From: a virus
Strand: one strand, 5' to 3'
IMG/VR virus record: IMGVR_UViG_3300025109_000086
Location: 1-20,487 of that record
Length of the DNA stretch: 20,487 bases
Part shown: in pieces, positions 3,103 to 20,487 of the stretch
How positions within the stretch are numbered: position 1 is the stretch's first letter
Layout of the letters: every line of letters begins with the position of its first letter
The notes under the pieces: generated by a model
What the model saw: the letters and a program-made list of their open reading frames with translations, nothing else
Database searches by the model: none
Told to the model about the DNA's origin: nothing
Translations under genes and position numbers: made by a program

Positions 3103-4230
3103 ATGGCAGCAACATATCCAACAGGAGTTAAAACTTGGGTCAGCTTGATCGATGGGACTGATTATCCAAAAGCAGCAGATATCAATACTCTCTATGAGGA
3201 AGTGACTGCTATTGAGACTGAGCTTGGAACTTCTCCTTCCGGTTCATCTTCTACGGTAAAAGCCCGATTCGATAATTTTGATACGATACTTGCCCTTTAT
3301 ATAGCAGGACCAGATGAAGTCCCTGTGATTGGCGATGCGGTGGCAGTAGCTAACACAAAATTATGGAGTAGTGATAAAATTAATGGGTATATCACTGATA
3401 GGATTGATGTCAATACTACCAATGATAATTTGTGGGCAGGTGATGGTGCAGGAGCTGGACTTGCTGCCGGTACAGATAATACCCTACTTGGTAATAACGC
3501 AGGAAACGCTGTTTCCTCTGGTACTGATAATACCTTGATCGGAAGTGAAGCAGGGCTTGTTCTGACTGGATCAGATTTTAATACAATGGTAGGGAGTGAA
3601 GCAGGAAAGGCAAATACAACTGCTGCCTCAAATGTATTGATAGGATACCAAGCAGGTCTCGCCATTATTACTGGTGGTGAGAATGTTGTAATTGGAGCAC
3701 AGGCAGCAGACACCATGACCGCTGGTGTACAGAATGTAATAATAGGGAGAAGCGCAGCGGATAAAGCCAGTACTTCTTTTAATCATAATGTTGTGATTGG
3801 ATACCAAGCGGCATTCTCGGATACTTTTGGAGATGATAGTGTTTTTATTGGTCATCAGGCAGGATACACCAACGCGGGGGAAAGCTCAAACGTTTTTATT
3901 GGATACCAAGCAGGATATTTAAATAATGACAGTTCAAACGTTTTTATTGGATACCAAGCAGGGTATAATGAAACTGGTCAAGGCAGACTATATATCATGA
4001 ATGGAAATGAGGATGAAACCGATGCACTGATATATGGCGAATTCCAGAACGCTTTATTGAGATTCAATGGAGAAGTTTGGTTAAAAGAATTAAGTAGTAA
4101 TCCGACTCCTGATGAGGGGTATGGAATTGTTTGGATGGATAATGGTGGTGGTTCTGGTGCTGATGGGGATTTGATGTATACAGCACAGGCTGGCGGGGTA
4201 ACAAAAACTTATATTATACAGGTATTTTAA
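3103..4230 (+). CDS. Tail fibre / adhesin with YadA-head-like repeats
   Basis: This is a 375-residue protein with a good ribosome binding site (GAGG before ATG). Residues 1-60 carry the common phage structural leader: TYPTGVKTW, a segment AADINTLYEEVTAIE, then LGTSPSGSSSTVKAR. Residues about 115-300 hold repeats of the form N-x-hydrophobic-IG-x-x-AG. Examples are NTLLGNNAG, NTLIGSEAG, NVLIGYQAG and, nearly identical, SSNVFIGYQAGY, spaced 14-22 residues apart. These resemble the head repeats of trimeric autotransporter adhesins, which form left-handed parallel beta-rolls. The C-terminus is a short beta-rich tail. The likely role is a trimeric receptor-binding fibre or its tip, acting outside the cell on the virion. 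Confidence 0.75.
   Translation: MAATYPTGVKTWVSLIDGTDYPKAADINTLYEEVTAIETELGTSPSGSSSTVKARFDNFDTILALYIAGPDEVPVIGDAVAVANTKLWSSDKINGYITDRIDVNTTNDNLWAGDGAGAGLAAGTDNTLLGNNAGNAVSSGTDNTLIGSEAGLVLTGSDFNTMVGSEAGKANTTAASNVLIGYQAGLAIITGGENVVIGAQAADTMTAGVQNVIIGRSAADKASTSFNHNVVIGYQAAFSDTFGDDSVFIGHQAGYTNAGESSNVFIGYQAGYLNNDSSNVFIGYQAGYNETGQGRLYIMNGNEDETDALIYGEFQNALLRFNGEVWLKELSSNPTPDEGYGIVWMDNGGGSGADGDLMYTAQAGGVTKTYIIQVF
3886..3962 (+). repeat. 29-bp direct repeat inside the fibre gene
   Basis: Bases 3886-3914 and 3934-3962 are identical over 29 bp and lie 48 bp (16 codons) apart, encoding SNVFIGYQAG twice. Shorter matches to the same core occur near 3640 and 3800. The exact spacing in whole codons and the lack of silent change indicate a recent duplication of one YadA-head-like repeat unit. 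Confidence 0.85.
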
Positions 4231-9274: not shown

Positions 9275-9340
9275 TTAATGCCACAGAACCAGAGCCCCAG
9301 TTCCCATTCTTTCGGATACAATGATCGTATCTTTTGCTAT
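9275..9340 (-). other. 21-residue frame with ATA at the start position
   Basis: A strong ribosome binding site (AAGGAGGAG, 9347-9355) lies inside the last codons of the Rad50 C-half gene. Eight bases after its GGAGG core, where ATG is expected, stands ATA, followed by 20 sense codons (AKDTIIVSERMGTGALVLWH) and TAA. It could be an expressed peptide with a rare ATA start, a gene that lost its start, or chance. Confidence 0.35.
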
Positions 9341-9975
9341 CTCCCTCTCCTCCTTATTAATGTATTCTCTTCTCCTTCAACTTTCACGGTTGCTATCCCT
9401 CTTCGTTTTTTAACCACAAATATTTTATCTGCTTTAAAATTAATTGTTTCACTGTGAGACACCATTATTATTTGTAATCCCAATTTTTTACTTACATCTT
9501 TAATCATCTCTCCTGCTTTTTCGTGCAAATCTGGAGAAAGATTTCTCATTGGTTCATCGAGTACCAATACAGGACTATTTCTATTTAATGACCAGAAGGC
9601 AACCCGTAATGCGAATGAAGCAACATCCATCGGACCACCACCACTTCCCTCTATTGGCTTATACTCTTCCCCTTCTTCCCTAAATAAAAGATCACATTCG
9701 GTCTGCCCCCTTCTTAGTTCAAACTTGACCACGAACTCCGGGGGATCGGGGAAGACAGCATTGAGTGCCAGCGTGACCAGACTCCCAAGATGGTACTCCA
9801 GTTCTTTCTGGGTCTGTTTGGCAACGTCCTGAAGGATAATTGTCGCCTTTGCTATATGCTCTTTTCGCTCCTTCAGCTGAACCAGTTTTTTGGTGCTCCT
9901 GTCCAGTGATGAGGTCACAAGGTCACGTTGAGCAATCTGAGTGGTCACTCTGTTCTGATAATAATCTATGTTCAT
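9337..9975 (-). CDS. C-terminal half of split Rad50/gp46-type ATPase
   Basis: This 212-residue protein holds only the C-terminal part of an SMC/Rad50-type ATPase. Residues 1-60 are a short coiled coil. Next comes a domain typical of phage recombination ATPases (QKELEYHLGSLVTLALNAVF, 56-75), the ABC signature loop SGGGPMDVASFALRVAFW (111-128), Walker B with catalytic glutamate (PVLVLDEPMRNLS, Asp140 and Glu141) and the His switch (IIMVSHSE, His174). There is no Walker A; that lies in the gene at 13657-14592. Together they would make one working ATP site pair. With Mre11/gp47 it should process DNA ends during recombination-dependent replication. The stop is TAG. Confidence 0.85.
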   Translation of the reverse strand: MNIDYYQNRVTTQIAQRDLVTSSLDRSTKKLVQLKERKEHIAKATIILQDVAKQTQKELEYHLGSLVTLALNAVFPDPPEFVVKFELRRGQTECDLLFREEGEEYKPIEGSGGGPMDVASFALRVAFWSLNRNSPVLVLDEPMRNLSPDLHEKAGEMIKDVSKKLGLQIIMVSHSETINFKADKIFVVKKRRGIATVKVEGEENTLIRRRGR

Positions 9976-10091
9976 AATGCTTTAAATTCCTTTTGAATTA
10001 AGAATTGTTGAATAAGAGCAATTCCTTTTTTATTAACAGCCTGTCTTATTAACACAGGCCACCTTTCTTTATTAAGTAAGCCACACTCCAT
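9972..10091 (-). CDS. 39-residue small protein before Rad50 C-half
   Basis: The TGA overlaps the ATG of the Rad50 C-half gene, suggesting coupling. The frame starts at an ATG directly abutting AAAAGGA, so the spacing is poor. The product is helical and basic (KERWPVLIRQAVNKKGIALI, then QQFLIQKEFKAL). Its 5' end lies in the 26-bp repeat array, which is not a multiple of three, so the N-terminus may not be conserved as protein. Confidence 0.4.
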   Translation of the reverse strand: MECGLLNKERWPVLIRQAVNKKGIALIQQFLIQKEFKAL

Positions 10092-10154
10092 TCCTTTTAA
10101 ATTAAGCCACACAATCCTTTATGAAGAATAAGCCACATTCCTTTTTATTAAGAA
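10051..10154. repeat. Array of degenerate 26-bp direct repeats
   Basis: TAAGCCACA occurs at 10077, 10103 and 10129, exactly 26 bp apart, each followed by a T/C-rich CCTTT segment and A/T-rich sequence. A fourth, weaker unit (AGGCCACCTTTCTTTATTAAG) precedes them at about 10056. Related TTCCTTTT-ATTAA segments recur at 9985-10036. The regular spacing suggests an iteron-like array. Confidence 0.7.
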
Positions 10155-10187
10155 TCTTATTTTAAAAGAATCAAAAGGTTTTCCACC

Positions 10188-10209
10188 GTAACTTTTTTTA
10201 AAAAGTTAC
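10188..10209. terminator. Perfect A/T-rich inverted repeat
   Basis: GTAAC, seven T, five A, GTTAC forms a 10-bp inverted repeat around a two-base centre. It could act as a weak terminator hairpin between the winged-helix gene and the Rad50 C-half operon, or as an unwinding element of the presumed origin. No long T-run follows outside the stem. Confidence 0.4.
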
Positions 10210-10360
10210 TAATCAATATTTAAATTTTGACAAGATAAAACAATTTACGAAGTAAATAACTTGTTAATTAATTTAACATATTGCAGATACTTTAAATGAG
10301 GAAGTAGCTATTTAACTATTTTGCAAACTTATTAAAAATCAAGTAGTTAGCTATGTTCTC

Positions 10361-10447
10361 ACTATATCGATTAAAAATTACACCCAATAAAATCAATAGT
10401 TTCATATTTAATCGATATAGTAATCGATATAGTCACTATATCAATCA
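10361..10447. repeat. Iteron cluster around TAATCGATATAGT
   Basis: Four copies of a 13-bp motif are visible: ACTATATCGATTA at 10361 (inverted), TAATCGATATAGT at 10409 and again at 10421 (12-bp step, sharing one base) and ACTATATCAATCA at 10435 (inverted, two mismatches), the last overlapping the stop of the winged-helix gene. They look like binding sites for a DNA-binding protein, perhaps that gene's product. The stretch 10210-10360 between the repeat groups is A/T-rich, has imperfect palindromes (GTTAATTAATTTAAC at 10263) and shows no gene. Confidence 0.65.
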
Positions 10448-11077
10448 ATATGGTTTAAACTTCAAAAAATTCTTTATTGTTTTCTTGTTGAGAAATGGCA
10501 TCAATTTAGGACTCCTACCTGCATTATAACAATAACCGAAGCCGTACTCTCTTTCTCTTCTGTTAAAACCACCGTGACCAAGCTTCTTTAAAACACCCAC
10601 ATCACACAAAGCCTTTATGTATTTTTTAACTGTTATTTGTTTGCGTTTAATCACCTTTGACGCCACCCGATAGAATTCTTTATTCATAACGACCACAGCA
10701 AACCAGTGCTCGTCATTGTCTGGGCATTTACGGTCTCTCTGGTTGCGGTCTGACCTTATGTAAATCAGATTCAAAAGCAAAATAAGTTTCTCGTATGTTA
10801 TGAAAATTTTAAACATCTCAGGCTCATCCGGAAACCAAGCAGACCACCAGTATTTAAAATCACCATAGAGTTTATCCTTATTCTCTTCTTTAAATTCTTC
10901 ATGAACTTCCTTTATTGCTTTTTCAACAGCATTCAGGGTTTTTCTTTTACTAAGTTTTCTGGTCTCTTTGTTTTTTTGTTCCTGCTTTAGGAGTTGTCGG
11001 AGTTTTTCATTGCAATCGCAGGTTCTTGCATGATTAATTTTTAACTCTTTCCCACGTTCTAACTTTTGTTTATCCAT
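10445..11077 (-). CDS. Winged-helix DNA-binding protein (candidate replication initiator)
   Basis: This 210-residue protein has a GAGG site 7 bp before the ATG. The first 75 residues are highly charged and helical (Lys/Glu-rich, with a CDC pair near 20). About 75-130 contains a Trp-rich segment (YGDFKYWWSAWFPDEPE) and a helix. Residues about 130-190 look like a winged helix: VASKVIKRKQITVKKYIKAL, then DVGVLKKLGHGGFNRRE and a beta wing ending GFGYCYNAG. Its stop overlaps a cluster of 13-bp inverted and direct repeats, the classic arrangement of an initiator or repressor beside its sites. Function as initiator is inference; a transcription regulator is the alternative. Confidence 0.55.
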   Translation of the reverse strand: MDKQKLERGKELKINHARTCDCNEKLRQLLKQEQKNKETRKLSKRKTLNAVEKAIKEVHEEFKEENKDKLYGDFKYWWSAWFPDEPEMFKIFITYEKLILLLNLIYIRSDRNQRDRKCPDNDEHWFAVVVMNKEFYRVASKVIKRKQITVKKYIKALCDVGVLKKLGHGGFNRREREYGFGYCYNAGRSPKLMPFLNKKTIKNFLKFKPY

Positions 11078-11089
11078 AATAATCCTCTT

Positions 11090-11335
11090 TTACCATGTAA
11101 AGTCCTCTTGTAGCTGGAGGAATTTTCTTTCCGCAATCCTCTGTTTTTTGTCCCCCTTTTCCTGCAGGTCTTTTATCTTTTGTTTCCTCCCGCTCCGATC
11201 CACCACGTTATGCTCCTTCTTGAGCTGTTGTGTCAGAAGGTTCAGCTTGCCCTCATCCATAGCCGTATCCTCTTTTTCTTCATCAATTGAGACTCTTATC
11301 TTCTCAAGTTCTTTTAGTATTTGTATCTGAGACAT
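11090..11335 (-). CDS. Small coiled-coil protein
   Basis: This 81-residue protein is almost entirely a charged helix: MSQIQILKELEKIRVSIDEE, then KLNLLTQQLKKEHNVVD, then a Lys-rich helix RKQKIKDLQEKGDKKQRI. Its start lies within the end of the zinc-ribbon gene (32-bp overlap), with a GGGGGAAG purine-rich site upstream. It has no membrane or catalytic motif. Its place between Mre11 and the Rad50 C-half makes it a candidate partner of that complex, but this is inference. Confidence 0.65.
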   Translation of the reverse strand: MSQIQILKELEKIRVSIDEEKEDTAMDEGKLNLLTQQLKKEHNVVDRSGRKQKIKDLQEKGDKKQRIAERKFLQLQEDFTW

Positions 11336-11585
11336 ATTTCTTCTTCCCCCTTTCCTTGTACTCTTCTTTTAATTTGTCCGCCAGTGCATTTGCTTTCTCC
11401 AGATGAGAAACCAGATTCTCTAACTGGTGGACTTTCTTGTAATTTAAAAATGGTTTGGAGAGTGACTCATATGATGGAAAAATTATCCCACACTCCACAC
11501 ACTTCCTTTTATTAAACCAGATATGTCCACGTTTCAGTTCTGATCTTACTACATGGGTTTCCCCTTCACACTTTGGACAGATCAT
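11304..11585 (-). CDS. NrdR-like zinc ribbon with coiled-coil tail
   Basis: This 93-residue protein starts MICPKCEGETHVVRSELKRG and has the four-cysteine ribbon Cys3, Cys6, Cys29, Cys32, then IFPSYE. This matches the N-terminal zinc ribbon of NrdR (MxCPxC ... RRRxCxxCGxRFxTYE). The NrdR ATP cone is absent. Residues 50-85 instead form a coiled coil (VHQLENLVSHLEKANALADK). It probably binds DNA or a partner protein through the ribbon. It sits in the Mre11/Rad50 operon and overlaps the following coiled-coil gene. Confidence 0.7.
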   Translation of the reverse strand: MICPKCEGETHVVRSELKRGHIWFNKRKCVECGIIFPSYESLSKPFLNYKKVHQLENLVSHLEKANALADKLKEEYKERGKKKYVSDTNTKRT

Positions 11586-11588
11586 TTT

Positions 11589-11792
11589 TTATTCTTCTTT
11601 TTTATTATTATCCGTACCATTAAATTGTCTAAATGTTGCATTAAGGGTTATTATAGAAGGTCTATTTCCAATATATCCATAAAATAATTGAAATTCAGGA
11701 AGTGATTCAATATCTATTTCTAAATTATCTGCCAACCCTTCAAAAATAAATCCACCTGATTCAATAGTAACTTTACAATCTTTTTTTATCAT
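11589..11792 (-). CDS. Small protein of unknown function
   Basis: The ATG overlaps the stop of the Mre11-like gene (ATGA), with AAGGGG upstream. The 67-residue product is acidic and strand-rich (KKDCKVTIESGGFIFEG, NLEIDIESLPEFQLFYG), with a polar tail NGTDNNKKEE. No family is recognised. Confidence 0.65.
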   Translation of the reverse strand: MIKKDCKVTIESGGFIFEGLADNLEIDIESLPEFQLFYGYIGNRPSIITLNATFRQFNGTDNNKKEE

Positions 11793-12706
11793 ACCTTAAC
11801 CCCTTCCATCACCTCGTCTATGATGGCCCTCTCTGGTTTTTTGATCGCCGGATCTTTCAACCGTTTCTGCAGGTTTATTACGAAGGATAATTTCTTTGGC
11901 TTATTCACAATTTTTCCAAGCTCCTTGGTATATAGATCCAGATTCTTGTTTACCTTTTTTTCCTCTTTATCTTTGGCTACATCAAATACTTCATTAAAGG
12001 GGACTATGGGTATAAATATCTGTTCCTCATCTCCAGTATTAGTATCTATAATCCATATAGAGGGTCTGTGCTCAGATTGTCCTATATTGGATCGCATCAG
12101 GGAGCCACAGTTGATCAGTTTCCTCCCCTGATAGTCACAGGTGAACGATTGGTGGTTATCCCCCGTTATGATGTAATCAAATTTTGTTTTCTTTAGTAGA
12201 GTTAGTGCCGTATCATACTCCTCCTGTCCCTGCCATACCTTCTTGTTTTTAATCACCATTCTATGAGTGACAAGAATGTGTTTATAATTACTTTTAGATT
12301 TATAGTCAGGAATTGGTTCTCCCCATGAGGAGCCATAGAGTATAAGGGTTCCAAATTCTGTAATACCATTATGTAATATATCAATAGCATTAGCATTTTT
12401 CATTACTCTTAAGTGAGTATCATCATGATTGGCAGAATGGAATTTTAGATCATGCTGTCCATAAATGGTAAAGATTTGCGGATCATTATAGAGGTGAAGA
12501 AGTCTGAGATATTCAGCCTTCAGGTATTCTGACACCTTCCAGTAGTCGAAGAAATCTCCGGGCTGTATCAGACAATCACATTTATAGTCCTGATAGGTTT
12601 GTAGAATAAACTCCATTTTGTTTCGTTGAACTTCAGGATAATTATCCAGTCGTTTTTCTGGTTGTTTATCTGTAAGGTGAAGATCTCCTGCAGTAAGTAG
12701 TCTCAT
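11789..12706 (-). CDS. Mre11/SbcD/gp47-like nuclease
   Basis: The ATG at 12706 is preferred over one nine codons upstream because it overlaps the previous stop (ATGA) and has GGAG 7-8 bp before it, giving 305 residues. Calcineurin-type phosphoesterase motifs appear in order: GDLH (Asp8, His10), GDFFD (Asp51, Asp54), GQHD (83-86), VTHRM (His148) and GDNH (182-185). In Mre11 these bind two Mn ions and cut DNA ends. The usual GNHD is here GQHD, so a metal-ligand Asn is replaced by Gln. The last about 80 residues are a charged helical region, probably the Rad50-coil binding segment. It lies between the two Rad50 halves. Confidence 0.85.
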   Translation of the reverse strand: MRLLTAGDLHLTDKQPEKRLDNYPEVQRNKMEFILQTYQDYKCDCLIQPGDFFDYWKVSEYLKAEYLRLLHLYNDPQIFTIYGQHDLKFHSANHDDTHLRVMKNANAIDILHNGITEFGTLILYGSSWGEPIPDYKSKSNYKHILVTHRMVIKNKKVWQGQEEYDTALTLLKKTKFDYIITGDNHQSFTCDYQGRKLINCGSLMRSNIGQSEHRPSIWIIDTNTGDEEQIFIPIVPFNEVFDVAKDKEEKKVNKNLDLYTKELGKIVNKPKKLSFVINLQKRLKDPAIKKPERAIIDEVMEGVKV

Positions 12707-13113
12707 TCCACCTCTCCTATCACCTTTGTCCATTTACAGACATAACAGGATATAAATCTTATTCTTCTACCTTTTGTCCAAAAAGGATGTAAAATCTCCC
12801 ATTCCCCCTCTATATAAATTTCTCTACATAAAACTTTTAGTAAAACTAAATCCTTTATATATCTAAAACTTTTAAGAACTGTTTCTGCTTCCTCTTTGAT
12901 TTTTATGACATGGAATCCCGCTTTATAATCTATAGGCATGGCTCTTATGGTTTTTTCTTTAGATACCCAACATGCCAAAGTCCAAACCCCCATAGGTTTA
13001 ATTTTGTCCACATATAGACCCCAGTATTTACTATCTACTTTGTGGGCTATCTGATAGCACTCAGTTATCTTTTGGATACTTGGTCTGACCTTCTTAATCA
13101 TATGAAGACACAT
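12703..13113 (-). CDS. Protein of unknown function
   Basis: This 136-residue protein has AAGGA about 9-10 bp before its ATG. It starts MCLHMIKKVRPSIQKITECY and is rich in Trp, Cys and Ile. The central part (WGLYVDKIKPMGVWTLACWV) and the end (RRIRFISCYVCKWTKVIG) look like a compact alpha/beta domain, with two cysteines three apart near the C-terminus. The stop overlaps the Mre11 start, so both are translated together. No family is recognised. Confidence 0.65.
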   Translation of the reverse strand: MCLHMIKKVRPSIQKITECYQIAHKVDSKYWGLYVDKIKPMGVWTLACWVSKEKTIRAMPIDYKAGFHVIKIKEEAETVLKSFRYIKDLVLLKVLCREIYIEGEWEILHPFWTKGRRIRFISCYVCKWTKVIGEVE

Positions 13114-13117
13114 AATT

Positions 13118-13297
13118 TTAATCCTTTTTATTTAAGGCATTGTGAAAAGTTATAACTATTACCTCTGCTACTAATACATGTGATATTACTTCTACTGCAC
13201 TTTTGCACATAGCTATTTTTTCTTGTGGTGAATAATCAGTATGTTTTAAATGGGCTAGTATATCTTTTGCTCCACTACAGATTTTTTGTTCATCCAT
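13118..13297 (-). CDS. 59-residue helical protein
   Basis: The ATG at 13297 has GAGG about 9 bp upstream, and the frame stops at TAA 13118-13120, just before the next gene. The product is helical: MDEQKICSGAKDILAHLKHT, then YSPQEKIAMCKSAVEVISH and a hydrophobic end VLVAEVIVITFHNAL. It has two cysteines. The function is unknown. Confidence 0.6.
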   Translation of the reverse strand: MDEQKICSGAKDILAHLKHTDYSPQEKIAMCKSAVEVISHVLVAEVIVITFHNALNKKD

Positions 13298-13338
13298 AAT
13301 TTTTAGTCCTCTATATGGCAGTTATTCTTTTCTCGCCA

Positions 13339-13470
13339 TTACCACTCTTTGTCGGCCTCTTCACATATCTTCTTGTTTGTTAGGGAATCCTCATCCCAGT
13401 TCTCAGCCACCCATTTTAAATAAGCAGATGGGATGACCTCCATATCCTGATCTTTGAATTTACCATATGG
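13339..13470 (-). pseudogene. DUF3820-like frame lacking a normal start codon
   Basis: The frame reads PYGKFKDQDMEVIPSAYLKW, then VAENWDEDSLTNKKICEEAD, then KEW and TAA. This matches DUF3820 (M-P-F-G-K-Y-K-G ... P-x-x-YL-x-W). The codon just before the Pro, where Met is expected, is TAG (13471-13473), and a GAGGAG site lies 6 bp upstream of that TAG. The first in-frame ATG is at residue 10 (13443) and would lose the conserved start. It is either a decayed gene, a +1 frameshift product of the preceding gene, or a non-standard start. Confidence 0.6.
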
Positions 13471-13660
13471 CTATATTTTCTCCTCTCAAGATTATAGGAT
13501 CATTATTGATTTCTGTTTCAATAATCTTAGTCTCAGTACAACAAATAAGATCAAGCTCAATTTCATATTTTTCTTCTTCTGTTGGTTCATGATCTAATAC
13601 AGCTACAGACATCCTGTCACAATCACTACAACTCTGAGATATTATTATCCATATTTTCAT
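13460..13660 (-). CDS. Small Cys-rich protein of unknown function
   Basis: The ATG at 13660 overlaps the Rad50 N-half stop (ATGA) and has GGAGG 8-9 bp upstream, so it is chosen over one nine codons earlier. The 66-residue product starts MKIWIIISQSCSDCDRMSVA, then an acidic helix (EPTEEEKYEIELDL) and CCTETKI. The alternating strand-helix pattern suggests a small alpha/beta fold. Its 3' end overlaps the DUF3820-like frame by 11 bp. Confidence 0.6.
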   Translation of the reverse strand: MKIWIIISQSCSDCDRMSVAVLDHEPTEEEKYEIELDLICCTETKIIETEINNDPIILRGENIAIW

Positions 13661-14592
13661 TTCACCTTGCCTCCACATAGTGGGCATATCTTGTTGGCTT
13701 TCAGTTTTGCCTTAAGTTTCTTTTCCAAGTCCACAACCGTTTTGGACTTATACTTAATATCATGTTTCAGTTGCTCGATCTGTTGATCATAGTCCATAAG
13801 GCTCTTTAGGATTTTTTCATCATCCTGAATTTTATCCATTAATATATTTAATTCTGTATAATGATCTTCAATCTCCAGCCATTCCTTTGCCTTTTTAATA
13901 GACTGTTCCAGTTCCCCAATCTGTTTATCTGCTTCCTGTATCTGGTTCAGATCGGATTCTATAGATTCCACACAATCAAAAAGTTTTTTCACCTCATCAA
14001 CAGCTTCAATTTTTTTATCAAGATCCTTAAACTCCTCCAACTCTCTCTGATCATCGCTAACCTTCTGCTCGGTCTCTTTTATCTCGGATTTATTCCTGTT
14101 GGTTATACTCTTAATTTCACTTGTGACGTTATCAATGATCTGGAGTCCTATAATTTCATTCAGTCTTTTGGCGACCTCACCGGGGCTGGTGTTCTGGAGC
14201 AGGAAATGTCTTTCATGTTGGGTCTGGATATTGATAGAAGATAAATTTAGTTGCTTTGTCACATCATCTGGAACAGCCCCTCTGAGGGCTTCAAAAGAAA
14301 CAGAGTATTTTCCAGCTTTATATCTGTATCCATTTTCTTTTGTGGATCGGTGACGTATAATCTCTCTATCCTCATCAATATCAATAATGAATTTTGCCCC
14401 CTCTTTCTCAGTACCCCAACGGATCATGGACTTGTTGGTTGGCCTGTTCTGGGCCACCCACTCCGCTCCACGGACAATGGTTGTTTTCCCACCATGACTC
14501 CTACCCTTGATGACATTCACTCCCTTGTGGAACTCAAGAGTGGTGTCTTTATGTGCCTGTATATTTACCAGATGAAATTTTTCTATTATCAT
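13657..14592 (-). CDS. N-terminal half of split Rad50/gp46-type ATPase, ending at the zinc hook
   Basis: This 311-residue protein begins like Rad50/SbcC (MIIEKFHLVNIQAHKDTTLE) with Walker A G-RSHG-GKT at 30-37 and a Q-loop region near 120-130 (NIQTQHERHFLLQ). Residues about 150-300 are a continuous coiled coil. The chain ends at KICPLCGGKVK, so the CxxC hook (Cys303, Cys306) is followed by only five residues. In Rad50 this hook sits in the middle of the protein and pairs two molecules through zinc. The signature motif and Walker B are absent here and are found in the gene at 9337-9975. Two bp separate it from the upstream peptidase gene stop. Confidence 0.88.
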   Translation of the reverse strand: MIIEKFHLVNIQAHKDTTLEFHKGVNVIKGRSHGGKTTIVRGAEWVAQNRPTNKSMIRWGTEKEGAKFIIDIDEDREIIRHRSTKENGYRYKAGKYSVSFEALRGAVPDDVTKQLNLSSINIQTQHERHFLLQNTSPGEVAKRLNEIIGLQIIDNVTSEIKSITNRNKSEIKETEQKVSDDQRELEEFKDLDKKIEAVDEVKKLFDCVESIESDLNQIQEADKQIGELEQSIKKAKEWLEIEDHYTELNILMDKIQDDEKILKSLMDYDQQIEQLKHDIKYKSKTVVDLEKKLKAKLKANKICPLCGGKVK

Positions 14593-14594
14593 AT

Positions 14595-15134
14595 TTAAAT
14601 ACTCTTTATGATAAATGGTGGACGCACCCCAGCAGAAAATTCATGGGCTGCTTTAAGTGCTGCTGCTATTCTTTTTTCTGGATTCATTTTTATACTCTCA
14701 AGTGCATGAAATGATCCAAGTGCATAGGATTCTCCACATCCCACGGAATCATAGTTTTTAACTGATTGACCTATCTGGAAATCTTCATAAATGACATATA
14801 GGTTTCCACGATAACCAAAAAGGAAAGTTCCACCACTTATTTCATTATTATTTACTTCTGCATAACCTTTCTTTTTCAATACATCAATAACTGCTTGTAT
14901 AAAAGCATTATTGAGATATTCTAAATCAGTTTCTTTTGCAAATCTATCTGGAGGTGTGAAATTCCAGCGTAGTATCTGTCCCATTCTGAACGATGAAGTA
15001 AAACCGAATAAAAATTCCTTATTTACAAAAACTTTTTCATCCAATCTTACTTTTAAATTATAACCTTCAACTCCTGCCGAATCACCTCCCATATAAACCT
15101 TATTATTTTCTACCCATCCAACGATACAGGTCAT
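14595..15134 (-). CDS. HslV/proteasome-beta-like Ntn peptidase
   Basis: The ATG at 15134 overlaps the preceding stop (ATGA) and places a Thr at position 2. The 179-residue product starts MTCIVGWVENNKVYMGGDSA. After Met removal the catalytic residues fall at canonical numbers: Thr1, Asp17 (GGDSAG) and Lys33 (RLDEKVF). LFGFTSSFR and VGCGESYALGSFHAL match further proteasome/HslV signature segments. HslV works as a ring fed by the HslU unfoldase; no such partner is in this window. Location directly before the Rad50 N-half is shared context, not proof of a link. Possible roles are host-protein degradation or a retasked Ntn hydrolase. Confidence 0.8.
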   Translation of the reverse strand: MTCIVGWVENNKVYMGGDSAGVEGYNLKVRLDEKVFVNKEFLFGFTSSFRMGQILRWNFTPPDRFAKETDLEYLNNAFIQAVIDVLKKKGYAEVNNNEISGGTFLFGYRGNLYVIYEDFQIGQSVKNYDSVGCGESYALGSFHALESIKMNPEKRIAAALKAAHEFSAGVRPPFIIKSI

Positions 15135-16628: not shown

Positions 16629-17492
16629 TCATTGTAGATCGAAAAATGTTTCCCAGTTGTCCCATGTTTTCCTCTGCAGGAAACTGTTCAGTCTGTACTT
16701 CTCAAATGTGTCGGAGAAATCTTTTTTTGTCAGACGATCTAATCCAATAGGAAAACTATTTGTTCCCTCTAATGGTAAACGAACTAAAGGAAAATTCCTG
16801 TTGAATATTTCTTTTCCTTCCTTTGACTCAATTCTTTGTTGTGTCATAGTTGTATTTTTCAACTGATTATTTAAATATTTGATTGCTGTCTTTTCCCCCA
16901 CTCTTTCAATGCCTTTTATATTGTCAGAACTACATCCTGCATAAGCTTTAATAACTGCCCACCTGTGAGGTCCTATTCCATATTCCTGTTCAAAATCTTT
17001 TTTTGTGTATAATGACTTTTTCTTTACATCAAATATAGATGATTCATAGGGAAGTAGTTGATAAAGGTCTTGATCACTTGAAACTATAATTTTATTTTTA
17101 TCATAAGATTCAAGCATCACTATACTTGCGATAATGTCATCAGCCTCATATCCCTTTTGAATAAATATGTTTTTAAAACCTATGCTCGGAAGGGTGTATA
17201 GTCGGAGTTCGGTGAACTGATCATAGGCTATTGATTCCAGTTCTTTCTCTTCACGGGTTTTCTTTTCCAACCTTTTCTTTTTATAATCAGGGTATATGGC
17301 TTTACGATTATTTACTCTGCTATCCCATGCAAACACCCATGTTTTTTCCTCCGGGAATTCCTGAGCCACAACCAGTATTTGCCGGAGAAATCCAAAGATG
17401 ATCTCTGTCTTGAACCCCTCTACGGAAAGAGGGGCATTGATAAGAGCGAACTTGATCTTATGGCAGATATAATTACAGTCTATGATTATCAT
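16629..17492 (-). CDS. FEN-type 5'-3' exonuclease (RNase H/flap nuclease)
   Basis: The ATG at 17492 overlaps the preceding stop (ATGA), giving 287 residues, the usual length of phage T5/T4 flap nucleases. Motifs in order: MIIIDCNYIC (Asp5), FAWD with RKAIYPDYKKKR (about 54-74, arch region), GYEADD (114-119), VSSDQDLYQLL (137-147) and the helix-hairpin-helix-like GCSSDNIKGIERVGEKTA (186-203). These bind the two metal ions and DNA. The enzyme removes RNA primers and flaps at the lagging strand. There is no polymerase domain attached. Confidence 0.85.
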   Translation of the reverse strand: MIIIDCNYICHKIKFALINAPLSVEGFKTEIIFGFLRQILVVAQEFPEEKTWVFAWDSRVNNRKAIYPDYKKKRLEKKTREEKELESIAYDQFTELRLYTLPSIGFKNIFIQKGYEADDIIASIVMLESYDKNKIIVSSDQDLYQLLPYESSIFDVKKKSLYTKKDFEQEYGIGPHRWAVIKAYAGCSSDNIKGIERVGEKTAIKYLNNQLKNTTMTQQRIESKEGKEIFNRNFPLVRLPLEGTNSFPIGLDRLTKKDFSDTFEKYRLNSFLQRKTWDNWETFFDLQ

Positions 17493-17668
17493 GATTTTTC
17501 CCATTCAAAAATTAACATAAGAAAATACATTGATAGACATGCTATAAATTGAAAGTATGATCTTTCACAACCTATTTCATAATTTGGAATAGTTTCTACA
17601 GATTGCCATAGAAAATTTCCTATTGATAATGCTATCCAAATTATAAAAGTACATATAAATTTTTTCAT
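17489..17668 (-). CDS. Small membrane protein
   Basis: The ATG at 17668 lies 2 bp after the upstream stop, with GAGG about 7 bp before it, and is chosen over a start nine codons upstream. The 59-residue product starts MKKFICTFIIWIALSIGNFL and has a second hydrophobic helix near the end (FQFIACLSMYFLMLIF). The stop overlaps the exonuclease start. The function is unknown. Confidence 0.6.
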   Translation of the reverse strand: MKKFICTFIIWIALSIGNFLWQSVETIPNYEIGCERSYFQFIACLSMYFLMLIFEWEKS

Positions 17669-17989: not shown

Positions 17990-19108
17990 CTAGGTATATC
18001 TGGGTTTTCTCCCAAGTTTGAGTTTTTCTTCAAATATCTGCCATGCTTCATGAACCATCACCTGCAGTTCCCGCTCCTTGTTTTCCTGCTCAATATAATC
18101 AATTAGCTTATTCCTTGATCCTTTGAAATCCCATTCCGTTACAATAATATTTCCTTTCTCTTTTTCTTCTCCTTTTTTCTTTTTCTGTTCTTTCTTTTTA
18201 TCTTTTTTCTTTACTTCTCTTTTCCAAAAATTCTGCTCCAACAGGTAATCAATATTCGCCCCTATGTCATCGATGCCATAGTCGTAGTAAATCGGGATGA
18301 GTACTTCGGGAACTTCTTTCCCTGTTAGTTTATTTTTACTGACTTTGCATTTGCCATTAATCCCGATTGTCCGTCCAAGGGATTTATGCCGTTTAACAAT
18401 GGACAGCCACATCTCATGAGTGGCAAAGAATTTGAGTGCTGTTCCCCCTGCTCTTGTCTTATCACTGAACCCCCATCCTACATTGACGGTTGCCTGAGAT
18501 ATAATAATTAATAATGAATTTGTTTTCTTTAAATTAAGGCATATTTGTCGGAGGGTTCTCCTTCCCATTTTTGCTCGTTCCATTCCCATACTCCCTGACA
18601 GCTCCTTATCTGTTCTATCTTTCTTTTTCTTCATGAAAACTTTATCTTTTTCCTGCTCCTCCTCTGAGGATAGGGCATCAAAGGAATCGATCACATAGAT
18701 AAAAGGAGTTTTATCAACACAAAGTTTTTGAAGGCTCCCACTTAAATCCTGAACGGTATCACTTACATCTTCCAAATCTTTTATCTCTACCCTTTCTTTA
18801 ACCCGCTTTCCAAATAGATACTCAATATTAAAAGAGAGTGCTGCCTCTGCATCATCAAATATAAGTTTATATTTATCAAACCTCTTATCTTGGCACACCT
18901 CTGCAAACATAGAGAGAGTGAGCAGGGTCTTTCCACTACTGCTATCTCCTATGAGGTTAATCATCCTTCCCAGTCCCCAACCACCAAAGGGGTTATCTGC
19001 ACATGCCAAGTTCAGAAGTGTTGATCCCGTTGGAACCAGCAGCTGTGATGTTTTGGTGGTCAGGGGCTTTTTCTCTTCAGTTTGTTTTCCTCTTCGTTGT
19101 AATGTCAT
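17990..19108 (-). CDS. RecA/UvsX-type recombinase
   Basis: This 372-residue protein has the RecA core. Walker A is GDSSSGKT (54-61), FDDAEAAL (84-91) carries the likely catalytic acidic residue, Walker B is FIYVIDSFDAL (Asp141), and ISQATVNVGWGF plus RAGGTALKFFATHEMW form the L2/C-terminal core. It catalyses ATP-dependent strand exchange on SSB-coated DNA. Unusual is a lysine-rich linker at about 299-319 (blocks of KKDKKK and KKKK) before a C-terminal helical piece (KLIDYIEQENKEREL). A Lys-rich insert also occurs near 159-163. The stop is TAG. The ribosome binding site (GGGAG) is distant. The SSB gene directly upstream supports the role. Confidence 0.87.
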   Translation of the reverse strand: MTLQRRGKQTEEKKPLTTKTSQLLVPTGSTLLNLACADNPFGGWGLGRMINLIGDSSSGKTLLTLSMFAEVCQDKRFDKYKLIFDDAEAALSFNIEYLFGKRVKERVEIKDLEDVSDTVQDLSGSLQKLCVDKTPFIYVIDSFDALSSEEEQEKDKVFMKKKKDRTDKELSGSMGMERAKMGRRTLRQICLNLKKTNSLLIIISQATVNVGWGFSDKTRAGGTALKFFATHEMWLSIVKRHKSLGRTIGINGKCKVSKNKLTGKEVPEVLIPIYYDYGIDDIGANIDYLLEQNFWKREVKKKDKKKEQKKKKGEEKEKGNIIVTEWDFKGSRNKLIDYIEQENKERELQVMVHEAWQIFEEKLKLGRKPRYT

Positions 19109-19117
19109 TGATAAATA

Positions 19118-20362
19118 TTATCTCCCTCTGTTGCTCAGTCGGTTACTGATTTTCTTCTTTTTCTTATCATCTTTTTTTGGAGCCGGTTTGTTCTTCTTTT
19201 TCTCTTTCTCCTTTTTCTTCTTTTTCTTTGCCGCTGCTTTGGCTTTTTCTATTTCCTCATTTTCCTCCTCACAGCTATCTCGGACATCGCAGTCCTCACA
19301 CTCCTCATGCTGGTCAAAATCATTTCCCCATTCTCCATCTTCATTCTCACATTCAGGAGGTCCTTCGCTTTCTTTCTCCTCTCCATTATTATCGGGGTTC
19401 CCGGATTCCTCTTTGCTCTTTTCATAGGCAGTTTTACACTCATCATAGAAGGAGCATTTCCGGCAGGTTCGGAGTTCATCAAAGTCCACTCCAAACTCTC
19501 CGTCCTCATCGGGGCATACATGATCATCAGGGATATCGGTATCAGAATTTCCATCATCATCAGGATCATCATCTATCTCAGCACTGCCCTTTTCATCTTT
19601 ATCATACTCATCCTTTGCAGGCTCCCCGTGGTAGTTCTCATATATTTCTTCGTAAGATGGTCGCATGTTGATAAGTTCCTCATCCACCGTGATATCTGCC
19701 TGATCAAGGATATGGTCAGGGATAACCGGATCGGATCTATCAGCAAATTTGTGTCCAAGATATTTTGTATTCTTTGCCTCTCCTTTTCGTGTCCATGCGA
19801 TGTGACAACCTTCCTCTATGTCATAGTAGGGGATAACCCCACCATCATCATCCAATTGCAATTCATCCAGTTTCTCCTTCATTAGAAAGAACGAACTGTT
19901 CCAAATCTGTACTCCCTTCTCCTCCTCCTCCGGAGTCGTGTGATCCCATATGAGAAAGATATTCCTGCTCTTTGCGAAAAGGGCTTTCCGGTCATCCTCA
20001 TCCATATCCGGTCGTGCCTTCAGATCTTCACAGATCGGACATGCTTTGTTGTATGTGAAACTTGGACATACATACTGCTTGTCCCCCGGACCGATACCCT
20101 GATGCACCCTCAATGAGAGTGTAAAGATAATGTTGCCCTCAGCTTCTGTTGGGTGGTTCTTTCCAGCGATAAACGGGATGATATCAATCTTGTGTTTCCC
20201 TGCAGGAGAGGTGAATGTTTCCATACCATCGGGGAAATTCTCTTTCAATAAGATAGTACCCCACTGCTGACCACCGGCATCCTCGGTATGCCTCTCCTGC
20301 CTATTGTGAATATCTTTTTTCTGTTTCTTGTACTTGTCTCTGAAACTATTCTTTTTTCCCAT
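19118..20362 (-). CDS. Single-stranded DNA-binding protein with tandem four-Cys modules
   Basis: The ATG at 20362 has AAGGAGGAG upstream at good spacing, giving 414 residues. The N-terminus is basic (KKNSFRDKYKKQKKD). About 35-225 is the DNA-binding core, with a T4 gp32-like zinc segment YVCPSFTYNKACPICEDL (Cys99, 108, 111). An acidic linker (250-282) follows. Two modules with identical spacing C-x16-C-x2-C-x5-C come next (Cys283/300/303/309 and Cys338/355/358/364), each with a G-x-x-D-F-D motif. The last about 40 residues are extremely Lys-rich, unlike the acidic tips of most SSBs. It protects ssDNA and loads the recombinase encoded next. Confidence 0.75.
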   Translation of the reverse strand: MGKKNSFRDKYKKQKKDIHNRQERHTEDAGGQQWGTILLKENFPDGMETFTSPAGKHKIDIIPFIAGKNHPTEAEGNIIFTLSLRVHQGIGPGDKQYVCPSFTYNKACPICEDLKARPDMDEDDRKALFAKSRNIFLIWDHTTPEEEEKGVQIWNSSFFLMKEKLDELQLDDDGGVIPYYDIEEGCHIAWTRKGEAKNTKYLGHKFADRSDPVIPDHILDQADITVDEELINMRPSYEEIYENYHGEPAKDEYDKDEKGSAEIDDDPDDDGNSDTDIPDDHVCPDEDGEFGVDFDELRTCRKCSFYDECKTAYEKSKEESGNPDNNGEEKESEGPPECENEDGEWGNDFDQHEECEDCDVRDSCEEENEEIEKAKAAAKKKKKKEKEKKKNKPAPKKDDKKKKKISNRLSNRGR

Positions 20363-20487
20363 CGGTAACTCCTCCTTGATTATTATTACTCTTATACTTT
20401 TGTTTAAAATCACCAATTGTTCTTATTACTGCCGCTCCACAAACCCTCACCATAAGATACAGCCCGAATAATGCAATAAAATAAAGA
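20346..20487 (-). CDS. Membrane protein, 5' end outside window
   Basis: A minus-strand frame open to the right edge ends at TAG 20346-20348. The visible part has a hydrophobic helix (LYFIALFGLYLMVRVCGAAV) then a polar tail (RTIGDFKQKYKSNNNQGGV). It overlaps the SSB start by 17 bp and carries the SSB ribosome binding site. The identity is unknown. Confidence 0.45.
   Translation of the reverse strand, partial: LYFIALFGLYLMVRVCGAAVIRTIGDFKQKYKSNNNQGGVTDGKKE

Follow-up and report, generated by a model that had tools for sequence, protein, structure and literature searches.

The viral contig IMGVR_UViG_3300025109_000086 of the IMG/VR database, a whole record of 20,487 bases analyzed here at its full length (the window), probably encodes a phage Mre11-Rad50 recombination nuclease, of the kind of SbcCD and T4 gp46/47, in which Rad50 is naturally made as separate chains that dimerize through free-ended zinc hooks. 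We assign this interpretation a probability of about 0.78. The system comprises four genes on one strand: N, for the Rad50 N-terminal lobe and a long arm that ends in the hook; M, for an Mre11-like protein; K, for a short helical hairpin; and C, for a coil stub followed by the Rad50 C-terminal lobe.

Complementary halves of one ATPase

Judged from their sequences, N and C are halves of the same Rad50 and cover complementary parts of it. Profiles of N (18 sequences) and C (10 sequences) were compared separately with solved structures and both found Rad50 of Methanocaldococcus jannaschii (3aux) as best match, N over residues 5-221 of the construct (E 2.8e-14) and C over residues 170-368 (E 1.4e-11), so that the C stub falls on the descending coil of Rad50. 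A Foldseek search with the model of N returned P. furiosus Rad50 chains as the top PDB matches. N also matched the Pfam family AAA_23 above its cut-off (E 1e-8) and the PHROGs family phrog_16465, labelled 'exonuclease' (5e-29), and C matched phrog_15167, labelled 'ATPase' (3e-24), together with SMC_N, AAA_21 and AAA_15 of Pfam, all below their cut-offs. The Mre11-like protein matched Metallophos (PF00149) above the cut-off (5e-9).

A first-pass annotation, made from the letters of the window, had described N as carrying a Walker A motif and ending five residues after CPLC, C as having the signature motif, Walker B and His-switch but no Walker A, and Mre11 as lying between them. Each of these descriptions was borne out (GRSHGGKT and the terminus CPLC-GGKVK in N; SGGGPMD, LVLDEP and VSH in C). 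The possibility it had raised that the halves are paralogues of different ATPases failed, given their common best structural match. Its layout of the split has to be revised in two respects. C begins away from the hook, with only about 66 coil residues ahead of the C-lobe core, and the remaining descending strand is therefore absent from both N and C. Nor is the protein simply split in two at the zinc hook, as the arrangement has three parts, with a conserved hairpin of about 80 residues, K, in the cassette.

Distribution of the split genes

Viral contigs were scanned twice with C as the seed (21 loci in the first scan and the best 80 of 106 in the second) and once with N (the best 80 of 140), and profiles of N, M, K and C were applied to the loci. 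All four genes were present in 21/21, 75/80 and 57/80 of them, respectively. A scan of genome contigs yielded five contigs from metagenome-assembled genomes, one of which (L028) had the full module. Removal of incomplete loci and exact duplicates brought 154 loci down to 109, every one of which shows the gene order N-M-K-C on one strand and a CxxC motif 2 to 28 residues from the C-terminus of N. The first-pass annotation was right in proposing a genuine Rad50-type ATPase encoded by separate genes with its hook at a free C-terminus, and the same split, for which it had suggested searching phage genomes, was found in these 109 complete, non-identical loci, a recurrence that speaks against chance, and in five complete named phage genomes. 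The relatives with fused halves that it had envisaged were not found, as no open reading frame (ORF) in the loci of the three scans matched both the N and the C profile. Of the N-seeded loci, 23 lack one or more of the four genes; 17 of these end less than 900 bases after N, and in two others (L040 and L094) the sequence runs out at or just after Mre11.

Seven loci with a short N or C were removed. The remaining 102 form 101 clusters when grouped by C at 90% identity, and 57 at 50%. The catalytic residues are nearly invariant among them: G30, G35 and K36 of Walker A, the glutamine of the Q-loop and the aspartate of Walker B are found in 102/102, the Walker B glutamate in 101 and the His-switch histidine in 91. 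This conservation, together with the number of loci, upholds the earlier statement that the two genes are not fragments by decay. In the Mre11-like protein, D17, GD, H94, H157 and H194 are present in all 102 and H19 in 101, with the motif variants [Q/N]HD and G[D/H]NH. The sequence hallmarks of Rad50/SbcC are present (N-lobe motifs, C-lobe motifs, a long arm with CxxC and linkage to Mre11/SbcD) except for a continuous single chain joined at the hook, in place of which there are separate genes in 109/109 loci. We consequently file the system as a split variant and not as an ordinary Rad50.

The named phages that carry the split are Bacillus phage vB_BboS-125, Microcystis phage Mvi-JY20, Microbacterium phage Magritte, Tunturiibacter phage Tunturi_5 and the uncultured phage LR745208. 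Each of these genomes has one N match and one strong C match; LR745208 has in addition a weak match to the C profile (E 0.005) with a stop inside. The families PHROG 16465 and 15167 correspond to the same split halves, for instance gp32 and gp35 of vB_BboS-125. There the halves are clustered and labelled separately, with no link between them and without K, so that two unlinked database families, an 'exonuclease' and an 'ATPase', appear to be the halves of one enzyme.

The third conserved gene

In all of the complete loci, K sits between the genes for Mre11 and C; these loci were chosen for holding N, M, K and C, and the presence of K in them is thus selected. The copy in the window was found at E 5e-8 by a profile built without it, and AlphaFold2 predicted a pure helical hairpin (mean predicted local distance difference test score, pLDDT, 88.6). 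K usually overlaps C in the relatives by a few bases, with varying lengths and frames, and in about a third of the loci the two are separated by gaps of 136 to 3949 nt. Four of the five named phages have K. Three of these four copies were part of the K profile; the other, in Magritte, was detected at E 1.8e-6 directly after a gene annotated 'nuclease', with C elsewhere in the record. The position and fold of this conserved, unnamed subunit make it the obvious candidate to occupy the position of the missing descending strand.

The strongest alternative is that K is a separate regulator or assembly chaperone, co-transcribed by chance and outside the ATPase. We regard this as unlikely, although of all the rivals it fares best. 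The length of K is fixed (median 81) while that of the N arm varies, Tunturi_5 lacks K, and the similarity of K to the C stub is weak (hhalign probability 62%), all of which would suit an outsider. Against this stand its place between Mre11 and C in the complete loci, selected as they are, its usual overlap with C, its hairpin fold in a place that would otherwise lack a descending arm, and its position after the nuclease gene even in Magritte. Some more specific ideas on K were rejected, namely that it is a duplicate of the C stub (on the weak similarity just given), that it forms one long descending helix (a hairpin was predicted) and that the N arm equals K plus the C stub in length. The last equality is seen in the window (150 versus 81 + 66) and fails family-wide, with a median ratio of 1.30 and no correlation. 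The start of K is overlapped by a gene for a 93-residue zinc-ribbon protein (11304-11585) that resembles the N-terminal domain of NrdR, below the cut-off.

Proposed assembly and its alternatives

From these sequences and models we infer an assembly, a zinc pairing, a binding site for K and a biological role. N, as the Rad50 N-lobe plus a long arm, and C, as the C-lobe plus a short descending coil, would form one ABC head with no covalent link, in which the C stub runs antiparallel along the base of the N arm. Two such heads would close on ATP and hold a dimer of the Mre11-like protein, and the CPxC motifs at the free tips of two N arms would pair via zinc, giving a hook built from N chains alone. 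The K hairpin would most likely pack on the arm above the C stub and replace the missing descending strand. The presumed task of the complex is to ready DNA ends for phage recombination-dependent replication. A role like that of T4 gp46/47 fits the nearby genes for a RecA/UvsX-like protein (17990-19108) and a 5'-3' exonuclease (16629-17504), both recognized with Pfam and PHROGs, and the locus L006, where the same kinds of recombination gene follow in order as judged by eye. That a two-chain head can form is indicated by the P. furiosus Rad50 heads deposited as two chains (1f2t A/B, 1ii8 A/B and 3qkr A/B), which we take to be laboratory constructs.

Several observations weigh against this interpretation. 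The signature serine is conserved in only 58/102 loci. C was not seen in L062, L073, L084 and L108 despite DNA beyond Mre11, and L062 has neither K nor C in 7 kb past that gene. K was not found in the complete phage Tunturi_5 and the N protein of Magritte has no terminal CxxC, so neither K nor the terminal hook is universal. A simple filling-in by K is further opposed by its being a hairpin whose length does not track that of the arm (rho -0.09, p 0.37). Finally, the model of N has a predicted template modelling score (pTM) of 0.44 from 18 sequences, and its lone straight helix may be over-simple.

Concerning the ATPase itself, N and C could be unrelated ATPase fragments that merely lie near Mre11, as their wide separation in the records of Tunturi_5 and Magritte might suggest. 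This is very improbable, since both have the same Rad50 as best match and cover complementary parts of it, and there is one strong N and one strong C match per complete split genome. The distances of N, C and Mre11 correlate as well (Spearman 0.58-0.68), which linked genes would show anyway. An equally improbable alternative is that K-C frameshifting, RNA splicing or protein splicing reunites the chains after transcription and yields a continuous working protein. The frequent short overlaps of K and C would be compatible with rejoining, but their lengths and frames vary, about a third of the loci have the gaps described above, other genes follow N, and an end 2 to 28 residues past CxxC leaves no room for an intein. 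That the halves are leftovers of a once-fused Rad50, produced by decay or contig mis-assembly, can be practically dismissed: C is indeed uncoupled from its neighbours in the window by an insert of about 1.1 kb, but separate genes occur in 109 non-identical loci from many assemblies and in complete named phages, with almost invariant catalytic residues and no fused ORF in the scans.

In discussions of Rad50 and its SMC relatives, the chain is taken to leave the head, follow the arm outward and return. If Rad50 is indeed assembled from separate chains here, a large group of viruses does without the chain link, retains the catalytic residues and carries the hook at a loose end. It would provide a naturally occurring setting in which to ask what a continuous coiled coil is needed for, be it zinc tethering, signalling from head to hook or control of the nuclease. 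As the first-pass annotation had conjectured, a free-ended hook might alter how two complexes are tethered. The ordinary Rad50 hook is described as a stable dimerization site (PMC6969161).

Periodicity of the N arm

AlphaFold2 modelled the N arm as one helix of 149 residues (pLDDT 84.5). Across 102 arms, the similarity at a lag of 47 residues lay 33 standard deviations over heptad-preserving shuffles, which take no account of sequence kinship, and this figure is not to be read as a probability. Within lags of 40 to 60 the best was 47 in 64/102 arms. Arm lengths in the 57 representatives cluster near 148, 195 and 242. A phase test of these lengths at 47 gave R 0.85 versus at most 0.39 in 2000 jittered sets, with periods of about 44 to 50 scoring almost equally. 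The second and third units of the arm are most alike (0.73), the end units being less so. The peak is also present in the arm of vB_BboS-125 gp32 and was not seen in those of LR745208, Tunturi_5, Mvi-JY20 and Magritte. A speculative reading, which we consider unlikely, is that the arm is built of units of about 47 residues gained or lost whole, and that individual K hairpins attach to its middle units, serving as a second strand that can be exchanged. If so, how long and how stiff the tether is would depend on the number of units and the supply of K, and the zinc hook would function without a covalent descending strand.

Comparison with known systems

In T4, the gene for a Rad50-type ATPase also lies near that for an Mre11-type nuclease, amid genes for replication and recombination (gp46/gp47), and gp46 likewise bears a CxxC hook on its arm. 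However, gp46 is a single chain with the hook in mid-chain (288 of 560) and its arm has no lag-47 signal (z 0.9). There is no such peak in the arm of E. coli SbcC either. The T4 genes 46.1 and 46.2, located between 46 and 47, were considered as relatives of K and rejected, as neither scores as K. Archaeal Rad50 proteins (M. jannaschii 3aux; P. furiosus 1f2t and 3qkr) are the best solved matches, yet the natural archaeal protein is one chain. Fusions of Mre11 and Rad50, such as Mimivirus R555 and others (PMC3175470), represent another rearranged layout of the same complex, in which the parts are joined and not split. The same paper describes the fusion of Bacillus phage 0305phi8-36 as lacking one SbcC P-loop segment (PMC3175470), an absence that a separate C gene might explain. 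We observed a further fusion of 921 residues, annotated as hypothetical, in Escherichia phage vB_EcoM_IME392 (L036, 5092-7857); it matches the Mre11-like and N profiles and its arm has a lag-47 peak too. No description of a naturally split Rad50/SbcC was found in the open-licence literature of PubMed Central, a collection outside which most subscription papers lie.

Putative insert between K and C

The features of the locus are listed in Table 1. N, M and C are all on the minus strand, with small ORFs in between.

Table 1. Coordinates of the split Rad50 locus and its associated features in the 20,487-base window.
Feature	Position	Strand	Description
N	13657..14592	-	311 residues; Rad50 N-lobe with Walker A and Q-loop, then long arm and CPLC hook
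Walker A	14482..14505	-	GRSHGGKT, N residues 30-37
N arm	13696..14142	-	N residues 151-299; predicted single helix; three units of ~47 residues
Zinc-hook motif	13675..13686	-	CPLC, N residues 303-306, then five residues and stop
M	11789..12733	-	314 residues; Mre11/SbcD-like metallophosphoesterase; alternative start nine codons later possible
K	11090..11335	-	81 residues; helical hairpin, helices 3-42 and 47-79
C start remnant	11070..11096	-	Putative remnant of ancestral C start, reads MVKEDYYG*; overlaps K end as in relatives
Direct repeat, left copy	11076..11084	-	GATTATTAT, 9 bp
Insert	9967..11075	-	Putative; 210-residue ORF and A+T-rich, repeat-bearing DNA
Direct repeat, right copy	9958..9966	-	GATTATTAT, 9 bp
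C	9337..9975	-	212 residues; ~66-residue coil stub and Rad50 C-lobe
Signature region	9625..9648	-	GSGGGPMD, C residues 110-117; SGGG replaces SGGE/Q
Walker B	9550..9567	-	LVLDEP, C residues 137-142
His-switch	9451..9465	-	MVSHS, C residues 171-175

The separation of about 3.7 kb between the halves given in the first-pass annotation is correct for the window (3681 nt, from 13657 to 9975, with the Mre11-like gene inside) but is not the usual state, as an insert of about 1.1 kb appears to have moved C off K. Its claim that both genes have coupled neighbours does not hold here for C, which is preceded by about 470 nt of non-coding, A+T-rich DNA (25% G+C versus 42% in C). C now starts 1.1 kb beyond the remnant at the K end, a remnant much like the C start of L011 and L012 (MVKEY). 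At each edge of the insert stands the sequence GATTATTAT, which encodes DYY in the frame of C and has three copies in the window versus 0.73 expected. The remnant and the repeat at both edges indicate that the K-C gap was widened by an insertion, possibly accompanied by duplication of its target. The inserted DNA carries direct and inverted repeats (TAATCGATATAG; TAAGCCACA with ATTCCTTTT). Its 210-residue ORF had no match in phages or plasmids and nothing above the Pfam cut-off. The insert might represent a mobile element, or else an origin of replication together with its initiator.

Other observations

Scans of the window for tRNA genes and Rfam families found none. The ORF directly upstream of N (14595-15131) matched a PHROG of the peptidase HslV family (E 7e-18). 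A possible single-strand-binding-like protein with a C-terminal acidic stretch was recognized by eye both in the window (19118-20416, two cysteine clusters) and in L006 (1710-2963, one cysteine cluster). L062, which is also the plainest case of N and Mre11 occurring with neither K nor C, contains two similar ORFs (9966-10367 and 12257-12676) with DWRLPTVDEL-like sequences, which we take to resemble the variable target proteins of diversity-generating retroelements. Finally, a protein of 375 residues encoded at 3103-4230 of the window has repeats of the form NVLIGYQAG and, by eye, looks like a beta-helical tail fibre.

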